Shown piece after piece: positions 48,767-56,775 of a stretch of DNA of 64,000 nt. The notes under the pieces are model-generated. The model searched no databases. It saw only the letters and a program-made list of their open reading frames with translations, and was not told the origin of the DNA. The stretch covers positions 496,001 to 560,000 of the forward strand of contig NZ_JAPFBJ010000001.1 in NCBI RefSeq assembly GCF_030867385.1. The letters are read 5' to 3'. Position 1 is the stretch's first letter. Every line of letters starts with the position of its first letter. The position numbers were made by a program, and so were the translations under genes. This stretch comes from Sphingobium sp. DEHP117 (lineage in GTDB: Bacteria; Pseudomonadota; Alphaproteobacteria; Sphingomonadales; Sphingomonadaceae).

Positions 48767-49762
48767 CTACTGCGTCGGATCAATCGGCTTTGCGCCATTG
48801 GAAACCTTGCCCAAAGTATCGTTGCCGATATATTTTCGCACTTCGAAATGGAGATGCGTTCCGTGATTTACTGCATTTCCGCTGTTGCCGACAACGCCTA
48901 CGGCATCACCTTTTGTAACAGGCCAGCCGACCTTGACATCCCCATAATTATCCAGATGTGCATACATGGACACGTTCCCATCTGGATGAAGTATGGCTAC
49001 TGTCTTCCCATAGCCGGGAATTACTCCGACATAATACACCTTTCCGCTGCCTGCGGCTTGGACGGTATCGCCGGATGTAGCAGGCAAATCTATACCATAA
49101 TGGGGTCGCCCATTGCGGTGTGTCCCGGATGGATCGTAGCGTCCGTCTGAATAAGGCTTCTTATTTGGACCAATGGCCCCGTGTTTGGCAGGTTTGCCAT
49201 TTCCGGCTACCGGCCACACATGAGGGGTCGGACTTTTTGACGCCCGATTTTCGGCGGGCCGTTTACCGACAACCAGAATGTCATTGTTGCCTGCATCGCT
49301 TTGCGCCTTCGGAGGCCCTGGAGAATGATGAGCGGGGTGCGGCGGCTCGTGTGGCGGCTCATGCTGCGGAATGTGCAGTGTTTGCCCTGCCTGAATATGA
49401 TCCGGGTGCTTGATGCCGTTCGCCCCTGCCAGTGCGTCGGTCCTTATGCCGTGCCGCCGCGCAATATGGGAGAGCGTGTCGCCTTTGCGGATGGTGTAGG
49501 TTCTTGGCTTTGCTGGTGCATGAGGACGGCCATGTCCCGGTGTGTGTCCTGAGCCTGTCCGGGCTCCACCCGGCGCGAAGGTAAACTGGCCATTACGCGG
49601 ATCATGATAGGGATTGAACTTCAATTCAACGCCCTGCTCCTCGATAAACATTTCTTCGGGAAGGCGTCGGCCGGTCCTCAGATAGTGAGAGAATGCCCTC
49701 TGGCTGAGCGATTTAAAAGATGCATGGCTCGTGATCATCACCTCATAGTTGCGGTGAGGCAT
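48767..49762 (-). CDS. LysM-M23 peptidase with phage/toxin-like N-terminus
   Basis: The 331-residue protein has three parts: an N-terminal segment with F-N-P-Y-H-D-P-R-N-G-Q-F-T (about 49-61) and a Gly-rich stretch, a LysM domain (about 86-132; Y-T-I-R-K-G-D-T-L-S-H-I-A) and a C-terminal M23 endopeptidase (about 195-315) with H-Y-G-I-D-L and H-L-H-F-E-V zinc motifs. There is no classical signal peptide. The linker contains D-I-L-V-V-G-K-R-P. N-P-x-H-D-x-x-N-G-x-F motifs occur at the start of phage-type and polymorphic toxin proteins (recalled), so this could be a cell-wall-cutting effector or phage lysin-like factor. Confidence 0.78.
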   Translation of the reverse strand: MPHRNYEVMITSHASFKSLSQRAFSHYLRTGRRLPEEMFIEEQGVELKFNPYHDPRNGQFTFAPGGARTGSGHTPGHGRPHAPAKPRTYTIRKGDTLSHIARRHGIRTDALAGANGIKHPDHIQAGQTLHIPQHEPPHEPPHPAHHSPGPPKAQSDAGNNDILVVGKRPAENRASKSPTPHVWPVAGNGKPAKHGAIGPNKKPYSDGRYDPSGTHRNGRPHYGIDLPATSGDTVQAAGSGKVYYVGVIPGYGKTVAILHPDGNVSMYAHLDNYGDVKVGWPVTKGDAVGVVGNSGNAVNHGTHLHFEVRKYIGNDTLGKVSNGAKPIDPTQ

Positions 49763-49898
49763 ATGAAAAAAAGCAGGATGTAGGACAGCAGAAAATCGCC
49801 ATCATCAAGCTGGATCGTTAATCCTCAACGGCTGACCCGGCGTTCACATTGCCGAGAAGCCGATCGGTGACGAAATCTGCCAGCCATGCGTATTTGCA

Positions 49899-50645
49899 AT
49901 GTTCAATGGAAGGCAAGGAAAGGCGAAGGATGTAGAGATTGATCCCCTACCGCGCCCACCATTGCCCCGCGCTCGGCCGCCGGGCGTTCTTCTGACACGC
50001 TATGGATTTCTCGCGCGCCCTGCGGTAGCGTTGCTTGCCCGACTGGAGCCAACCGCGCCTGTGCCGAATATTCCCGAATCCCTGATTCTCAACAGCTCCG
50101 TCGCGGCGGTGGTGAGCAACCCGCGCCTGCCTGATAACCCGTTGATCGCGTGCAATGAAGCTTTTCTGCGGCTGAGCGGCTATGCGCGAGAGGAGGTGAT
50201 CGGCCGCAACTGTCGCTTCATGCGCGGGCCGGGGACCGAGTGGGAGCAAACCGCCCTGTTGAGCGCCGCGATCGCGGAGGCGCGCCCGACTCTGGTGGAG
50301 CTGACGAACTATCGCAAGGACGGCGCGCCGTTTCGCAACGCCGTGATGATCGCGCCGCTGTTTGATGATCGGGGCGATCTCGAATATTTCCTGGGTTCCC
50401 AGATGGTGGTCGACGCGGGGAATGAGAGCCGCCAGGCGCAGGCGCTCGCGCTGATCAAACAGCTGAGCCGCAGGCAGCGCCAGATCCTGGAAGGCCTCAC
50501 CCGCGGGCACCTCAACAAGCAGATCGCCTATGAGCTGTCGGTCACCGAACGCACGGTGAAGATGCACCGAGCGGCGATGTTGCGCGCGCTCAACGTGCGT
50601 ACCGTGGCGGAGGCGATCCGCACCGCCATCGAGGCGGGCTTTTAA
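49899..50645 (+). CDS. LOV-HTH blue-light transcription factor, EL222-like
   Basis: A LOV domain (about residues 62-170) is followed by a LuxR-type HTH (about 190-248; L-T-R-G-H-L-N-K-Q-I-A-Y-E-L-S-V-T-E-R-T-V-K). The photoactive Cys is in G-R-N-C-R-F-M-R; the flavin-contacting Gln is in F-L-G-S-Q. This is the layout of EL222 of Erythrobacter litoralis, in which light releases the HTH to dimerise on DNA. The residue after F-M is Arg where most LOV domains have Gln. The first 30 codons run through the tRNA-derived repeat, so a TTG at 50031 is a likelier start. It converges on the IspH-prenyltransferase fusion gene. Confidence 0.85.
   Translation: MFNGRQGKAKDVEIDPLPRPPLPRARPPGVLLTRYGFLARPAVALLARLEPTAPVPNIPESLILNSSVAAVVSNPRLPDNPLIACNEAFLRLSGYAREEVIGRNCRFMRGPGTEWEQTALLSAAIAEARPTLVELTNYRKDGAPFRNAVMIAPLFDDRGDLEYFLGSQMVVDAGNESRQAQALALIKQLSRRQRQILEGLTRGHLNKQIAYELSVTERTVKMHRAAMLRALNVRTVAEAIRTAIEAGF
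49928..49961 (+). repeat. Diverged partial copy of the tRNA-Val 3' end
   Basis: Seventeen bases at 49945-49961 equal the tRNA 3' end (47850-47866), and the preceding bases still show the T-arm half GTAG. It is the far edge of a 2.1-kb insert whose other edge is the intact tRNA, the usual outcome of site-specific integration at a tRNA. Confidence 0.75.
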
Positions 50646-50662
50646 CCGCGAGTCTGCCCCCG

Positions 50663-52510
50663 TCAGTGCATTCGGCGGACGGCGAAGCGGGCGAGGTCGT
50701 GCAGCGGCATCGCCTTTGGCCCCAATGCCTCAAGGGCATGGTGGCAGGCGTCTTCCAGCATGCTTGCCTTGCGCGCCGCGCCATCCAGGCCGAGTGTGTT
50801 GGTTGCGCTCTGGCGGCCGGCCGCCCCGTCTTTCCGCAGGGCCTTGCCGACGACCGACGGGTCACCCACGCTGTCGAGCATGTCGTCGCGGATCTGGAAC
50901 ACCAGCCCCAGATTTTCGGCGAACCGGAGCAGCTTCTCGCGCTCCTGCTCCGTGCAGGGGCCAAGCATTGCGCCCGCTTCGACCGCGAACCGGATCAGCG
51001 CGCCGGTCTTGCGCGCCTCGCATTCGAAAACATCCTGCGCGGTCGGGTGGGGCGGAGGATGGAGGTCCATCATCTGCCCACCCGCAAGCCCGTCTTGCCC
51101 TACAGCACGGGCAAGTGAGAGCACCAGACGCGCCCTCAGTGCGCCGTCGGGGTGGGTGGCCTCGTCCGCCAGAATTTCAAACGCGAGCGCGAGCAGCGCA
51201 TCGCCGGCCAGCACCGCCGTAGCCTCGTCGAACTTGCGGTGCAGCGTCGGCTTGCCCCGGCGCAGATCGTCGTCATCCATGCAGGGCAGGTCATCGTGCA
51301 CCAGCGATTGCGCGTGCACGCACTCGATGGCCGCGCCGATGCGCAGCGCGTGGGCATAGGATCCGCCGACCAGATCCGCGACGGAGGCGACGAGCAGCGC
51401 ACGAAACCTTTTGCCCGCGCCGGTGACGGCATAGCGCATGGCGTCGGCCAGCCGGCGGTTGCGCGTGTCACTCTGGCCGATGGCGCTTTCGAGTACGGCA
51501 TCGAGGTCGGCCCGCAGGCGCGAGAGCCGATCCTCCAGCGATCCCGAATCGCCCGGCGTGCTCAGCGGCTCGAGCCCGGCCGGGCGGAACCGCACCCGCT
51601 CGGGCGCGCCATCCGTTTCCTCCAGCGCGAAGCCTTGGTCGACCAGCGCATCGCACACCCCACGCACCGCTGTCTCGGGTGTCGAGGCGGCGGCAGTGAG
51701 GCCGATCACCCCGGCGCGTGCGATCAAATCCACCGGCAGGTCGCGTGCGGTGGCCACCAGCCGCGCTTGCGGGCAACCGGCGCTTAATGCCACCTCCACC
51801 AGCCGCCGCGCGTTGGAGGACATCGTGTCCCCCACCACCAGCACGAGGTCCGCCTGGGGCGCGATTGCGGAGATCGCGCGCTGGCGGTTCGTGGTGGCGT
51901 AGCAGATGTCGCTCGCGCGGGGGGCCGCGCAATCCGTGAAGCGCGCACGGATCGCGGCTATCATTTCCTCGGCGTCGCCCGCAGCGAAGGTCGTCTGCAC
52001 TGCAAAAGCAACCGCGCTGTTGGGCGCGAGGTCGAGCACATCCAGATCCTGCGGATGGGTAACAAGGGAAATCGCGCCTGCGGGCAGCTGGCCCAGCGTG
52101 CCGACAATCTCGGGGTGCCCCTGATGGCCGATCAGCAGCACATGGCGCCCGGCGCGATACCATGCCTCCACCTCGGCATGCACCTTCGCCACGAGCGGGC
52201 AGACGGCGTCCACCACGCGCAGATTGCGGTTATGCGCCGCGTGCTTGACCGCACGGGCGCTGCCATGGGCGGAAAGGATCGCCATCGCTCCGGCAGGAAT
52301 TTCGTCCACCTCCTGCACGAACACCGCGCCGAGCGCCTCCAGCCGGGATACGACCTCGCGGTTGTGGACGATCGCGCGCCGCACATAAACCGGCGCTCCG
52401 TGCAGCGACAGCGCCTGCTCGACCGCATCGATCGCGCGCTCCACGCCCGCGCAGAATCCGCGCGGGTTGGCGAGCAGCACGCGCCGCTGATCCTGAGTGC
52501 CGATACTCAT
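50663..52510 (-). CDS. Fused IspH (HMBPP reductase) and prenyl diphosphate synthase (CrtE/IspA type)
   Basis: The 615-residue chain has two enzymes. Residues 9-311 are IspH: C20, C104 and C203 for the 4Fe-4S cluster (G-F-C-A-G-V, D-A-V-C-P-L-V, D-I-C-Y-A-T), H82, H-Q-G-H-P-E at 129-134, and S230-S231-N232. After a short linker, residues 323-615 are an E-isoprenyl synthase: A-G-K-R-F-R near 364, first Asp motif D405-D-L-P-C-M-D, second motif D-D-M-L-D. At position -5 from the first Asp it has Gln, not the aromatic residue of farnesyl synthases, which points to a C20 product (inference). The start at 52510 follows AGGAAG. It would couple IPP/DMAPP supply to GGPP for carotenoids. Confidence 0.9.
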   Translation of the reverse strand: MSIGTQDQRRVLLANPRGFCAGVERAIDAVEQALSLHGAPVYVRRAIVHNREVVSRLEALGAVFVQEVDEIPAGAMAILSAHGSARAVKHAAHNRNLRVVDAVCPLVAKVHAEVEAWYRAGRHVLLIGHQGHPEIVGTLGQLPAGAISLVTHPQDLDVLDLAPNSAVAFAVQTTFAAGDAEEMIAAIRARFTDCAAPRASDICYATTNRQRAISAIAPQADLVLVVGDTMSSNARRLVEVALSAGCPQARLVATARDLPVDLIARAGVIGLTAAASTPETAVRGVCDALVDQGFALEETDGAPERVRFRPAGLEPLSTPGDSGSLEDRLSRLRADLDAVLESAIGQSDTRNRRLADAMRYAVTGAGKRFRALLVASVADLVGGSYAHALRIGAAIECVHAQSLVHDDLPCMDDDDLRRGKPTLHRKFDEATAVLAGDALLALAFEILADEATHPDGALRARLVLSLARAVGQDGLAGGQMMDLHPPPHPTAQDVFECEARKTGALIRFAVEAGAMLGPCTEQEREKLLRFAENLGLVFQIRDDMLDSVGDPSVVGKALRKDGAAGRQSATNTLGLDGAARKASMLEDACHHALEALGPKAMPLHDLARFAVRRMH

Positions 52511-52552
52511 ATGCGCCTGCTTCCTGTCAAATATGCGCCTGCTTCCTGTCAA
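52509..52552. repeat. Perfect 22-base tandem duplication at the fusion-gene start
   Basis: Two exact 22-base copies (52509-52530 and 52531-52552) lie head to tail over the ribosome-binding site of the IspH fusion gene. Each, read on the minus strand, contains TTGACAGGAAGCAGGCG. The copy nearer the gene supplies the AGGA site; the other repeats it upstream. Confidence 0.8.
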
Positions 52553-52613
52553 ACTTCTGGCATCCTCTTTTTCAGGCGTTAGCATGCAACGCCCGATACC
52601 TGCGGAACACCCA

Positions 52614-52623
52614 CCCCTAGGGG
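52614..52623. promoter_or_regulatory. Palindrome in the divergent crt promoter region
   Basis: CCCCTAGGGG is a perfect 10-base palindrome roughly midway between the divergent IspH-fusion and crtI starts. It is a candidate control site for both arms, for instance by the LOV-HTH protein (inference). No consensus was confirmed. Confidence 0.35.
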
Positions 52624-52696
52624 CAGGTTGCACAGGTGTGATCGATCCCTATCTGCCGGGGTCGGAGATGCCTGTGACGAAAGTGTATTGATCTTC

Positions 52697-54169
52697 ATGC
52701 CCAGTCAAAAGTCAGCCGTCGTCATAGGATCCGGGTTCGGTGGGCTGGCGCTGGCCATCCGGCTCCAGAGCGCGGGAATCGCCACCACGATCGTCGAGGC
52801 GCGAGACCGTCCGGGCGGCCGCGCCTATGTCTGGAAGGAAGCGGGCTACACCTTCGATGCCGGGCCGACCGTGGTGACGGACCCGCCGTGCCTCGAGGAA
52901 TTATGGGCACTATCCGGCAGCCGCATGGCTGATGATGTGACGCTGCTGCCCGTCCAGCCTTTTTATCGTCTGTTGTGGAACGACGGGACGGCCTTCGATT
53001 ATTCCAACGACGCTACCCAGCTGAATGCCGAAATTGCGCGGCTCGACCCCGCCGATGTCGCCGGATACGCGCGGTTTCTCGACTATTCGCGAGCGGTGTA
53101 TGAGGAAGGCTATGTCAAGCTCGGCGCCGTGCCGTTCCTCGATTTCGGGAGTATGCTGAAGGCCGCCCCCGCGCTCGCCCGGCGTCAGGCCTGGCGCTCG
53201 GTCTATTCCATGGTCTCCAGCTTCGTGAGCAACGAGAAACTGCGTCAGGCGCTGTCATTCCATACCCTCCTCGTGGGCGGCAACCCGATGCATACCAGCA
53301 GCATCTACGCGCTCATTCATACGCTGGAGAAGGACGGCGGCGTGTGGTTCGCCAAGGGCGGCACCAACGCGCTCGTGAATGGCATGGTCGCGCTGTTCAA
53401 GCGGCTGGGCGGTAAATTGCTGCTGGGCGAGGCGGCGACGCGCATCATCCATGCAGGCAAGCGCGTGACGGCTGTTCAAACCGCAGCCGGGCGTACGCTC
53501 AAAGCAGACATGATCGCCAGCAATGGTGATCTGGTTCACAGCTATGGGCTGATCGAGGGTTCATCCTATGCGCAAGGCAGGGTGCGCGCGCTGAAGCGCA
53601 AGCGTTTCTCGCCCAGCCTGTTCGTGGTTCACTTCGGGCTGAACGGCACCTTCCCGGATGTTGCTCATCATAGCATATTGTTTTCAGATCGTTACGGCCC
53701 GTTGCTCAACGATATTTACAAGAGTGGCATACTCCCCCCAGACCCGTCGCTCTACCTCCACAACCCCTGCGCCACCGACCCCTATATGGCGCCGCCCGGC
53801 AAATCCGCCCTCTATGCGCTCGCCCCGGTGCCGCATATGGGCCGCGCGCCGGTGGACTGGGCGCGCGAGGGGCCGCGCTATCGCGAGGTCGTGTTGAACC
53901 GGGTGCGAGACCTGCTGATCCCGGACCTGTACGAGCGTCTGGACCATTGTTTCCACTATACCCCGCAGGATTTCTCCGACGATCTCGGCGCGCATCTCGG
54001 CAGTGCGTTCAGCCTCGAACCGATACTGACGCAAAGCGCCTGGTTTCGCGGCCACAACCGCGATGATCATTTCGGCAATCTTTATTTCGTCGGCGCGGGG
54101 ACCCATCCCGGCGCGGGGATACCCGGCGTCGTCGGCAGCGCCAAGGCGACCGCAAGCCTTATGGTGTGA
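52697..54169 (+). CDS. crtI: Phytoene desaturase CrtI
   Basis: The 490-residue protein has the N-terminal FAD motif V-V-I-G-S-G-F-G-G-L, D-R-P-G-G-R-A near residue 40, and the C-terminal carotenoid-desaturase block G-A-G-T-H-P-G-A-G-I-P-G-V. It converts phytoene to lycopene at the membrane. The ATG at 52697 is chosen because the FAD motif then lies 10 residues in; a longer in-frame start near 52628 would add a chain with no family match and run through the palindromic promoter. crtZ follows 28 bases later. The promoter region is shared with the IspH fusion gene. Confidence 0.94.
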   Translation: MPSQKSAVVIGSGFGGLALAIRLQSAGIATTIVEARDRPGGRAYVWKEAGYTFDAGPTVVTDPPCLEELWALSGSRMADDVTLLPVQPFYRLLWNDGTAFDYSNDATQLNAEIARLDPADVAGYARFLDYSRAVYEEGYVKLGAVPFLDFGSMLKAAPALARRQAWRSVYSMVSSFVSNEKLRQALSFHTLLVGGNPMHTSSIYALIHTLEKDGGVWFAKGGTNALVNGMVALFKRLGGKLLLGEAATRIIHAGKRVTAVQTAAGRTLKADMIASNGDLVHSYGLIEGSSYAQGRVRALKRKRFSPSLFVVHFGLNGTFPDVAHHSILFSDRYGPLLNDIYKSGILPPDPSLYLHNPCATDPYMAPPGKSALYALAPVPHMGRAPVDWAREGPRYREVVLNRVRDLLIPDLYERLDHCFHYTPQDFSDDLGAHLGSAFSLEPILTQSAWFRGHNRDDHFGNLYFVGAGTHPGAGIPGVVGSAKATASLMV

Positions 54170-54197: not shown

Positions 54198-54695
54198 ATG
54201 CATACCGCCACCCTCATCCTGATCTTCCTTGGCACGGTCGCCGCCATGGAGCTGTTCGCCTATGCCATGCACCGCTGGGTGATGCATGGGCCGGGCTGGT
54301 TCCTGCACGCCAGCCACCACCGTGCACGCACCGGGCCGTTCGAGTGGAACGACTTTTACGCCGTCATCTTCGCTGTGCCCTCCATCCTATTGATATACTT
54401 GGGTGTTCGTGGCGGCTGGGGCGATGGTGCGACGGCGGTGGGCGCAGGCATTGCGGGCTATGGCATGATCTATTTCGGCTTTCACGACTGGATCGTGCAC
54501 CAGCGCCTGCCGCACCGCATCGTGCCGCGCTCGCGCTATTTCAAGCGCATCGTGCAGGCCCACCGGCTGCATCATGCGGTCGAGAGCAAGCGCGGCACGG
54601 TGAGCTTCGGCTTCCTCTATGCCCCGCCGGTTGACGCCCTGAAAGCGGCGCTCAAACAGTCGGGTGAGGCGCGGCTGCGGGAGCCCGGCACCTAA
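54198..54695 (+). CDS. crtZ: Beta-carotene hydroxylase CrtZ
   Basis: This 165-residue membrane protein of the fatty-acid-hydroxylase superfamily has the CrtZ histidine clusters H-R-W-V-M-H, H-A-S-H-H, F-H-D-W-I-V-H and H-R-L-H-H. It hydroxylates both rings of beta-carotene to zeaxanthin. The ATG at 54198 gives the usual length. Its end overlaps the end of convergent crtB by 4 bases. No crtW ketolase or crtG hydroxylase is in the window, so zeaxanthin is the last product encoded here; nostoxanthin or glycosides would need genes elsewhere. Confidence 0.93.
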   Translation: MHTATLILIFLGTVAAMELFAYAMHRWVMHGPGWFLHASHHRARTGPFEWNDFYAVIFAVPSILLIYLGVRGGWGDGATAVGAGIAGYGMIYFGFHDWIVHQRLPHRIVPRSRYFKRIVQAHRLHHAVESKRGTVSFGFLYAPPVDALKAALKQSGEARLREPGT

Positions 54696-55624
54696 CCCGG
54701 CCGCGTCCAGAGGCCGGTGCGCAGGGTGTAGGCAGGCGTGAAGGGCGCGCGCATCAGGGCGCCAGCAAACAGCGCCAGCTTGGCGGCAGCGCCAGTGCGC
54801 ACCCGCTCGTCCCACGCGCTCGTCTCCCGTTGCACCACGCGCTCGCCGATCGCGCCGTAAATCGCGTCCGCCGCCAGCACGGCGAGGCGCGAACGGGGCG
54901 CAAGATGCGCCGCGCCGATCCGCGCCGATGCACGATAGGGGCGAGACAGCTCCACCAGCCGTTGCGCCATCCGCGCCAGCCTGGGTCGATGCCGGGGCAG
55001 GTGGATGTCCGCCTCGGCCAGTCCCTCCGCCTCCAGCCATTGTGCCGGCAGATAACAGCGCCCGGCCAGCGCATCGGGCACGATGTCGCGCGCGATATTG
55101 GCAAGCTGAAACGCCAGCCCGAGGTCTGACGCGCGATCGAGCACCTCCCGCTCGGCCGGATCGACGCCCATCACCACCGCCATCATGCAGCCCACGCTGC
55201 CCGCGACATGATAGCAATAGCGCAGCAGGTCGTCCTCGCTCTCCGGCCGCCAGTCCGCCGCATCGAGCGCGAACCCGGCGATATGGTCGTCGATGAAGGC
55301 GCGGGGCATCTGTGTTTCGCGCGCAACGAGGCGCAGCGCCGCGAACGGTGTCGGAACCGCCGCATCGCTGGTGAGCGCGGCGTCGGTCAACGCCACCAGC
55401 CGCATATGAGCCTCGCCCGCGTCGTCCTGCACCGCCGCAGCAGCGCCGCCCAGTTCCTGCCCATCGGTCATGTCATCCGCCGCGCGGCACCAGGCATAGA
55501 GCAGCCATGCCCGCTCGCGCGTCATCGGCGCGAACAGCCTGCTCGCCGCCGCAAAGCTCTGAGATCCGCGCGCGATGCTCTGATAGGCGGCCTGCACCAG
55601 CGCGGCGCGATCGGCTTGCGTCAT
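54692..55624 (-). CDS. crtB: Phytoene synthase CrtB
   Basis: This is a 310-residue squalene/phytoene synthase with D-x-x-x-D in A-A-D-D-M-T-D and the second motif L-A-N-I-A-R-D-I-V. It joins two GGPP to phytoene. The ATG at 55624 overlaps the crtY stop (ATGA); longer in-frame starts lie in crtY. It receives its GGPP from the fused IspH-prenyltransferase, and its product goes to CrtI encoded on the opposite strand. Confidence 0.93.
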   Translation of the reverse strand: MTQADRAALVQAAYQSIARGSQSFAAASRLFAPMTRERAWLLYAWCRAADDMTDGQELGGAAAAVQDDAGEAHMRLVALTDAALTSDAAVPTPFAALRLVARETQMPRAFIDDHIAGFALDAADWRPESEDDLLRYCYHVAGSVGCMMAVVMGVDPAEREVLDRASDLGLAFQLANIARDIVPDALAGRCYLPAQWLEAEGLAEADIHLPRHRPRLARMAQRLVELSRPYRASARIGAAHLAPRSRLAVLAADAIYGAIGERVVQRETSAWDERVRTGAAAKLALFAGALMRAPFTPAYTLRTGLWTRPG

Positions 55625-56775
55625 CTTCCGCTGCCCATCAGCGCCCGCACCGCCGCCGCTATCGAGACCGGCGGCTTGCCGGTCAGGATGGCGAGCTTGT
55701 CCGAGGCGGTGAGCGCACCCGCATAAAACCGCCCGATCCGTTCCGGAGAGAGGCGATAGAAATGCGCGAAGATGAGGTGGCGCTCCTCCGGTTTGGCGGC
55801 ATGGAACAGCATGCGGTTCAACAGCCGGAAATAGCCGCTCTCCCGCCAGTGCGCCATGAAGCGCGCGCGCGTCCACCGCGCCAGCTGCGCGCCGTCGAGT
55901 GGGCCGGGCAGGACAGACAGCTCCTCCGCCAGCCGCAGCGCCAGCCCGAAGGAATAGCCCGTCGTCGCATGAAAAAATCCACCGCGCAGGCCCAGCCGCG
56001 CTATCGGGTCATTCTCCGGCCAAAACAGATCGGGATCGCCGCCGATCAGGATCGGCAGCACGCCCGTCTCCTGCCGCACTTCTTCGCCCGAAAGCCCGCG
56101 CGCATGCGCCAGCGCCCGTACGCGATCCGCCACTTGGCCCACATCAAGATCGGGCGTGTTGCTATAGTAAGTGTCCTCCACCAGCACCGTCTCGGCGCTC
56201 AGCGGCAGCACATAGACAAAGCGATAGCCGTCTATCTGCGGCAGCCGCGCGTCCATCACCGTGGCGCAGTCCGGCTCCGGCGCGCGCGCCGCGAATTCGA
56301 TGCCGACGAACTTCTGCCACCCCAGCTCCAGCCCCGGCATCGGCCCGTCCGGCCCGCGCGCGTCGATCACCGCGCGCGCCGCAATCCGCTCGCCGGTGCC
56401 AAGCGTCACGGCGTCTGTCTCTACCCTCGTCACCTCTGTGTTCAGCCAGTAAGCCGCCTCGGGCAGCCGCGCCCGCACCAGCGCATCGAGCGCCGCCGCA
56501 TTGGTCGCGTTATAAGCCATGGGAAGCATGCGCTCGCGCCCTTCAAAGGCCACGCGGTGGCGCGGCCAGCGTACCGGGGCGAGCGCCTCGACCAGATCGC
56601 CCGCGCCCGGCGGCACATCGCTGTCGAAGAACGACCAGACATGATTGCCGCCAAAGCTTGCCCCGCCCTCGATCAGCAACAGCGGAATGTCCGGCCGCCG
56701 CGCCGCCAGCCGCAGCGCCGCCAGCGCCCCCGCCAGCCCGCCGCCGACAATCACCAGAGGAAGCTCGCGCGTCAT
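55621..56775 (-). CDS. crtY: Lycopene beta-cyclase CrtY
   Basis: This 384-residue flavoprotein has the dinucleotide-binding motif V-I-V-G-G-G-L-A-G at its start, I-E-G-G-A-S-F-G-G-N-H and the C-terminal F-H-A-T-T-G-Y-S-F-G typical of CrtY. It cyclises both ends of lycopene to beta-carotene. The ATG at 56775 is chosen; an in-frame extension to 56889 has no family match. The promoter must lie in 56776-56903, shared with the divergent DUF2141 gene. It precedes crtB with a 4-base overlap. Confidence 0.93.
   Translation of the reverse strand: MTRELPLVIVGGGLAGALAALRLAARRPDIPLLLIEGGASFGGNHVWSFFDSDVPPGAGDLVEALAPVRWPRHRVAFEGRERMLPMAYNATNAAALDALVRARLPEAAYWLNTEVTRVETDAVTLGTGERIAARAVIDARGPDGPMPGLELGWQKFVGIEFAARAPEPDCATVMDARLPQIDGYRFVYVLPLSAETVLVEDTYYSNTPDLDVGQVADRVRALAHARGLSGEEVRQETGVLPILIGGDPDLFWPENDPIARLGLRGGFFHATTGYSFGLALRLAEELSVLPGPLDGAQLARWTRARFMAHWRESGYFRLLNRMLFHAAKPEERHLIFAHFYRLSPERIGRFYAGALTASDKLAILTGKPPVSIAAAVRALMGSGR

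Follow-up and report, generated by a model that had tools for sequence, protein, structure and literature searches.

Introduction

What a cell might gain by tying the last enzyme of the MEP pathway to an enzyme that uses its products is the question raised by the window, i.e., the whole stretch of 64,000 nucleotides from Sphingobium sp. DEHP117 that was analyzed here, in which a single chain combines IspH with an E-prenyl diphosphate synthase. An earlier note on this DNA, prepared from the letters alone, proposed that the fusion channels isoprenoid flux into carotenoids. The protein is, in our judgment, probably a bifunctional IspH/GGPP synthase whose task is carotenoid synthesis. The N-terminal half would convert HMBPP to IPP and DMAPP via a [4Fe-4S] cluster, the C-terminal half would assemble GGPP from one DMAPP and three IPP, and the neighboring CrtB would convert GGPP to phytoene. 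The most likely gain would be a fixed 1:1 ratio of precursor supply and consumer, atop the housekeeping pathway, and the fusion looks like a precursor source reserved for the pigments.

Structure of the Fused Gene

The minus strand of the window is open from 52510 to 50663 over 615 codons and a stop, and the corresponding plus-strand reading (50663-52510) contains stops in that register; the earlier note named no strand. The gene is divided as follows.

50663..52510, minus strand: fused ispH-prenyl synthase gene, 615 aa, with the ATG at 52510 and the stop at 50663-50665
51584..52483, minus strand: IspH (LytB) half, residues 10-309, from domain matches and key sites
51533..51583, minus strand: linker, residues 310-326, variable among relatives and of low model confidence at 311-330
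50666..51532, minus strand: E-prenyl diphosphate synthase half, residues 327-615, IspA-like, from domain and structure-chain matches
51275..51295, minus strand: first Asp-rich motif, D406-D407-L-P-C-M-D412
51308..51310, minus strand: Gln401, the fifth residue before the first Asp-rich motif, a predicted chain-length switch

Residues 11-289 match Pfam LYTB (E 1e-79), and residues 353-587 match polyprenyl_synt (PF00348; E 2.9e-49; 168 bits against a cut-off of 27). The fusion exceeds the cut-off of TIGR00216 ispH_lytB (274.1 against 187.85 bits) and does not reach the narrower NCBIfam IspH models, e.g., NF002190 (354 against 389). Solved IspH chains match residues 9-293 (best E 2e-80), and the synthase half is matched by a solved polyprenyl synthetase (E 3.1e-72) and by geranyltranstransferases (from E 9e-66). 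The frame and both domain matches bear out the earlier description of a complete IspH and a complete E-prenyl synthase in one chain. The IspH residues named at the time (C20, C104, C203, H82, H129, and E134) are all correctly placed; the first Asp-rich motif is present as described, although it lies one residue later (D406-D407 to D412) than the D405-D411 given for it. The second Asp-rich motif of the synthase half is DDMLD (residues 542-546). The predicted monomer structure (mean pLDDT 89.7, pTM 0.61, low confidence at 311-330) looks like two well-formed domains on an apparently flexible tether. Separately, a perfect 22-bp tandem duplication (window 52509-52552), with TTGACA in each copy, overlaps the ATG of the fusion and is absent from the three relatives checked.

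Distribution of the Fusion

Both halves occupy one frame, in the same order, in ten loci: the window, eight other genomes, and one Sphingobium plasmid. The nine other proteins are 57-82% identical to that of the window (genome G000): G032, 82%; G351 and G251 (Novosphingobium kunmingense, locus L006, Sphingomonadaceae), 75%; G835, 74%; G295 (a Sphingosinicella MAG, locus L007), 72%; G881, 65%; plasmid pKN1 of Sphingobium yanoikuyae, 61%; G857, 58%; and G220, 57%. This recurrence settles the concern that a frameshift or an assembly error had merged two separate genes. Five relatives do carry separate genes whose ends overlap or nearly touch, such that a single indel could merge them; the identical in-frame arrangement in nine further loci shows that the fusion is not an assembly artefact, and the probability left to such an error is negligible.

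The fusion is real, rare, and conserved. In overlapping samples of genomes, each including the window genome, it is intact in 3 of 94 from the genus (with three further matches that are split or single-half), 4 of 397 from the family (with nine further matches to a half or a partial half), and 5 of 396 from the order (with one further match, to IspH only). The class (1/385, E <= 1e-92) and phylum (1/398, E <= 1e-90) samples yielded the fusion in the window genome only, at limits that, with at most three scored candidates per genome, would miss weakly similar fusions. One of 327 plasmid records carries the fusion (pKN1), and none of the 36 matching phage records reaches 80% coverage of the query.

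Origin of the Fusion

The comparison of fused and unfused homologues suggested in the earlier note sets the ten in-frame fusions beside five loci in which ispH and the synthase are separate neighbors. The likely ATG of the synthase overlaps the stop of ispH by 4 nt in Sphingomonas daechungensis (locus L035) and G298 and by 7 nt in G1037, and follows it after a gap of 2 nt in G996 and 8 nt in G1060. Such overlapping or nearly touching pairs are the likely source of the fusion: a second ispH and an adjacent, re-tooled IspA paralogue of a carotenoid cluster would have become one frame. In Sphingomonas daechungensis, the synthase (L035:6915-7827) spans more than one frame, and crtY and the LOV-HTH gene match in pieces; these may be pseudogenes or sequencing errors.

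The IspH tree places the 22 linked IspHs together, with 41 other IspHs outside their clade (100/99); within it, nine unfused rows lie on one side (100/95) and ten fused and three IspH-only rows on the other (100/98). Rows omitted from the trees for their length are the synthase of L035 and the IspHs of G030 and G034. crtI lies within the fetched stretch for 18 of the 22 and is absent from it for G836, G843, G957, and G304. Fusion of adjacent genes is the simplest reading, and we infer the direction from unfused to fused, the root being the midpoint. The linked synthases fall in two places in a first synthase tree; once five octaprenyl rows and one long row are removed, a single clade is not rejected (p-AU 0.497) but appears in only 18% of the bootstrap trees, and the linked synthases may have one origin or two. 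A hint of transfer from one lineage to another comes from G295: its linked IspH joins those of G351 and G251 (95/91), but its housekeeping IspH branches outside the 22 others (98/86) in a set of 23 Sphingomonad rows.

Four genomes of the fused clade retain partial forms (IspH only in G836 and G843, a truncated IspH in G888, and the synthase only in G949), and these, together with the split fusion of G030, count against a strict need for the fusion. The element that splits G030 is a transposase gene (Pfam Transposase_mut; L105:9064-10293) inside the IspH half.

The IspH Half as an Extra Copy

The earlier note held that the cell must either have another ispH or depend on the fused one; the first alternative is the correct one. 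A search of the genome for separate ispH and ispA/crtE genes, as it had proposed, located a stand-alone second ispH (C3:119304) and two further synthases. One (C1:602168) is IspA-type and scores 318.9 bits with the FPP synthase model, above the cut-off of 275; the other (C1:1143779) is octaprenyl-type, and its best model is octaprenyl diphosphate synthase at 319 bits, below the cut-off of 412. With another ispH and both a short-chain and a long-chain synthase, the cell need not depend on the fusion, and the stand-alone ispH rules out the fused IspH as the only one here. A complete IspH besides the linked one is present in 20 of 22 related genomes of a hand-picked set. G835 and G034 have a single IspH match each, which in G835 is the fused one. 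In G000, ispH is followed by a kinase gene (Pfam APH), which we take to be thrB; G032 has this gene too, and it was found neither in G835 nor in G034, so that an assembly gap is likelier than a genuine lack of a second ispH. Two ispH copies are also reported for Sphingomonas nostoxanthinifaciens (PMC9950776).

Twelve sites of the IspH half were followed (C20, C104, C203, H49, H82, H132, E134, T174, S231, S232, N233, and S276), of which the three Cys are presumably cluster-binding and the His, Glu, Thr, Ser, and Asn presumably belong to the active site. In alignment with solved IspH, all key sites are present in the window fusion. Ten of the twelve are kept in all 22 linked IspHs, E134 in 21 of 22, and S276 in all 21 that reach it, the truncated protein of G888 ending before the site; all twelve are kept in nine of the ten fused proteins. 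The synthase half likewise has its catalytic residues conserved. In G220 (L108), a natural Gln occupies the position of E134. Between G000 and G032, the two closest relatives, dN/dS is 0.10 for IspH and 0.11 for the synthase; over five pairs it ranges from 0.10 to 0.25 and from 0.09 to 0.15, respectively, rough figures because dS is near 1. These ratios show purifying selection on both halves.

An alternative is that the IspH half has ceased to be an effective reductase and serves chiefly as a regulatory or oxygen-sensing Fe-S domain. Its status as an extra copy beside a housekeeping ispH and the Gln for E134 in one fused protein would fit, as would the sensor roles proposed for IspH-RPS1 (PMC4746011). 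The intact twelve sites in nine of ten fused proteins and the low dN/dS of this half (0.10-0.25) speak against it, and we regard a sensor as highly improbable. The reductase activity of the preferred bifunctional enzyme is a prediction from its residues.

Chain Length of the Synthase Product

The "GGPP/farnesyl-type" label of the earlier note can be sharpened to an IspA-like enzyme with Tyr replaced by Gln at the chain-length residue, which would favor GGPP. The synthase half scores 216.7 bits with the CrtE GGPP synthase model NF045685, below its cut-off of 460, and is therefore not filed as a member of CrtE but only said to work like one; its best NCBIfam match, the FPP synthase model NF045485, is a near miss (270.7 bits, cut-off 275). 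That both cut-offs are missed counts against a dedicated GGPP synthase. At position -5 relative to the first Asp-rich motif, the aromatic residue of IspA-type FPP synthases is absent from the window protein, where Gln401 is found; the residue is Gln in 13 and His in 4 of the 17 linked synthases. By contrast, Tyr occupies this position in all nine IspA genes of these genomes, in three of three more, and in 71 of 71 synthase-half loci among the best 80 of 592 matches of a peptide-pattern scan, hence in 83 of 83 IspA-type enzymes overall, a tally from which five octaprenyl-type enzymes (Ala at -5) were left out. Position -4 is Ser, as in IspA.

Two papers report a part for this place in setting chain length. 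The Y90A variant of yeast FPP synthase, with a smaller residue there, also makes GGPP, and Y90K gave none (PMC11048977); in a cyanobacterium, a GGPP synthase given bulky residues at -4/-5 reportedly became an FPP synthase (PMC7261888). Gln at -5 is not among the tested substitutions covered here, and this and the Y90K result count against the GGPP reading. The replacement of Tyr by Gln or His at -5 suggests a C20 product, and the linked synthases look, from their residues, like IspA enzymes re-tooled for GGPP. The competing reading is that the synthase half makes FPP, or a mixture of FPP and GGPP, and that the fusion merely boosts general prenyl supply. Its top model and the Ser at -4 agree with this, as does the fact that most genomes of the genus possess crtI without this enzyme, where IspA itself may supply GGPP. 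The split at -5 (17 of 17 linked enzymes against 83 of 83 others, 71 of the latter among the best 80 of 592 matches), the IspA with Tyr that the genome already holds, and crtI being adjacent to nine of ten fusions and close to the tenth weigh more heavily, and FPP as a main or joint product appears improbable.

Gene Surroundings and Regulation

The carotenoid-cluster setting of the two substrate-linked enzymes implied in the earlier note is evident from the neighboring genes, i.e., crtI, crtZ, crtB, and crtY, listed here with the other elements around the fusion.

49899..50645, plus strand: EL222-like LOV-HTH regulator (PAS/LOV with GRNCRF and a LuxR-type HTH), convergent with the fusion and 17 nt from its stop
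52610..52631, minus strand: 22-bp site, about RCAACCTGTCCCAAGGGGAGGA, shared by nine loci in the stretch from crtI to the linked ispH
52697..54169, plus strand: crtI, phytoene desaturase, divergent from the fusion
54198..54695, plus strand: crtZ-like beta-carotene hydroxylase gene, named by its HASHH and HRLHH motifs
54692..55624, minus strand: crtB, phytoene synthase
55621..56775, minus strand: crtY, lycopene cyclase, whose end overlaps the start of crtB by 4 nt

For the crtZ-like gene (54198..54695), neither Pfam nor NCBIfam gives a match at E <= 0.001; its motifs are described in PMC5989583. crtI adjoins the fusion in nine of the ten fused loci, on the opposite side in G220; in G857, it lies 2.5 kb away, with crtY and a DUF2141 gene intervening. 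When nine window proteins were searched in the fetched stretches, pKN1, G030, G220, and G295 contained only crtI, the fusion (split in G030), and a LOV-HTH match, which together form a compact module, once plasmid-borne. At E <= 1e-100, crtI is matched once or more in each of the 94 genomes from the genus, with two matches in G030 and in the three genomes with an intact fusion; 88 of the 94 have crtI and no match to the fusion protein (P0001) at E <= 1e-92, so that the module is not required for carotenoids in general. A second crtI-like gene of the window genome (L208:9519-11027, on C2 of G000), 48% identical, adjoins a Lysine_decarbox (Pfam) gene that we take to be LOG-like, and the same pair occurs in G032 and G835.

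The neighboring LOV-HTH protein, with a LOV domain containing GRNCRF and a LuxR-type HTH, matches EL222 at E 7e-54. A LOV-HTH match is found near the fusion in seven of ten fused loci; six keep NCRF, and that of G295 retains the C-terminal part only. The 22-bp motif was chosen by eye from related sequences, so its scores are descriptive rather than a strict test. The profile was drawn from eight loci in which the site lies between crtI and the fusion; sites orthologous to that of the window are in L103, L104, L105, L110, L114, L131, L136, and L145. With its own sequence excluded from the profile, the window site scores 19.6, the best in the window (next 12.7); a ninth site, before the linked ispH of G888 and not used for the profile, scores 28.4 bits. 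Ten loci shuffled once each gave at most 14.2, and one real match elsewhere, in the unrelated locus L112, scores 16.1.

The site is a candidate operator of the LOV-HTH protein. It is absent from G881 and G857, both without a LOV-HTH match, and weaker copies adjoin the LOV-HTH gene in G843, G888, and G030. It is also absent from G220, where the LOV-HTH gene is present, and from the unfused Sphingomonas-type loci, and G032 has the site with no LOV-HTH match nearby. The fusion would be switched on together with the pigment genes, probably by the LOV-HTH protein, and light control is a prediction. An EL222 operator consensus gave three window matches against 2.28 expected, none near the fusion or in the promoter region. 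EL222 and the neighbor share domains and the GRNCRF motif, whereas the target site of the neighbor is putative. A sigma-70 scan of 49700-52900 gave no promoter match.

Possible Channeling and a Proposed Pigment Cassette

The earlier note spoke of channeling, which in the strict sense would have the IPP and DMAPP made by the IspH half reach the active site of the synthase half, in the fused protein, before mixing with the cell pool. In its favor, the two reactions are consecutive, the order of the halves is constant in ten loci, and IspH yields approximately five IPP per DMAPP (PMC4746011), which is near the 3:1 needed for GGPP. The low-confidence linker, the pTM of 0.61 in an otherwise well-folded two-domain monomer model, and the halves that are lost or separate inside the fused clade argue against channeling, as does the small size and diffusibility of IPP and DMAPP. 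On balance, channeling is unlikely. A bolder proposal joins the bifunctional enzyme to its surroundings as a light-controlled, partly mobile pigment-flux cassette. It would consist of crtI, an enzyme leading from HMBPP to GGPP in one chain, and a LOV-HTH switch acting on an operator of its own; its host would obtain terpenes for its own use without drawing on the housekeeping pathway, and the tether would be kinetically beneficial. We advance this tentatively, as a possibility with the odds against it.

Comparison With Known Systems

IspH fusions are already known, and an E-prenyl synthase as the partner is new within the literature searched. The text of PMC4746011 covered here names RPS1, UbiA, CMP kinase, helicase, fructose bisphosphatase, and UDP/PNP phosphorylase as IspH partners, with no E-prenyl synthase among them. 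A search of open-licence papers found no fusion of IspH with an E-prenyl diphosphate synthase, in agreement with the statement in the earlier note that no IspH-CrtE protein was known; within that literature, this would be the earliest description of such a synthase joined to the terminal enzyme of the MEP pathway. The partner here is PF00348, neither S1 repeats nor UbiA, and the fusion scores 193.9 against 624 bits with NF000907. A close counterpart is the IspH-UbiA protein that Rao et al. (2015; PMC4746011) describe from sulfate-reducing bacteria, which likewise joins an N-terminal IspH to a prenyl-using enzyme and was proposed to raise local IPP/DMAPP. There, the partner belongs to the UbiA superfamily of membrane prenyltransferases and the hosts are anaerobes; here, it is an E-prenyl diphosphate synthase, the hosts are Sphingomonadaceae, and the fusion is an extra copy within a carotenoid cluster. 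IspH-RPS1 (NF000907) also consists of two parts and begins with IspH; its partner consists of ribosomal S1 repeats and, unlike here, the authors found no other ispH in those organisms (PMC4746011).

Among synthases, the IspA-type farnesyl diphosphate synthase is the nearest model of the C-terminal half (NF045485), from which the fusion differs in Gln for Tyr at -5, in being fused, and in its place beside crt genes. The CrtE of carotenoid clusters resembles the synthase half in cluster place and predicted reaction, although the latter falls far below the CrtE model and is apparently a re-tooled IspA. For 41 Sphingomonadales strains, PMC5989583 reports that crtE never lies beside other crt genes and is present in non-carotenogenic strains, and a two-strain study (PMC9967899) that no GGPP synthase could be annotated. 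Given the Tyr/Gln pattern at -5, the mostly single-copy crtE of PMC5989583, also present in non-carotenogenic strains, may well be IspA. A subset of Sphingomonadaceae has, inside the carotenoid cluster, a synthase whose residue at the textbook position for chain length is not that of IspA; the fusion would be nature's own way of directing isoprenoid flux toward carotenoids. This synthase is half-hidden, since the protein can be annotated as IspH only, as in the record of plasmid pKN1. Outside Sphingomonadales, a plasmid of Indioceanicola profundi carries another IspH (L206:9950-10945), and two genes in its vicinity share 30-32% identity with CrtI.
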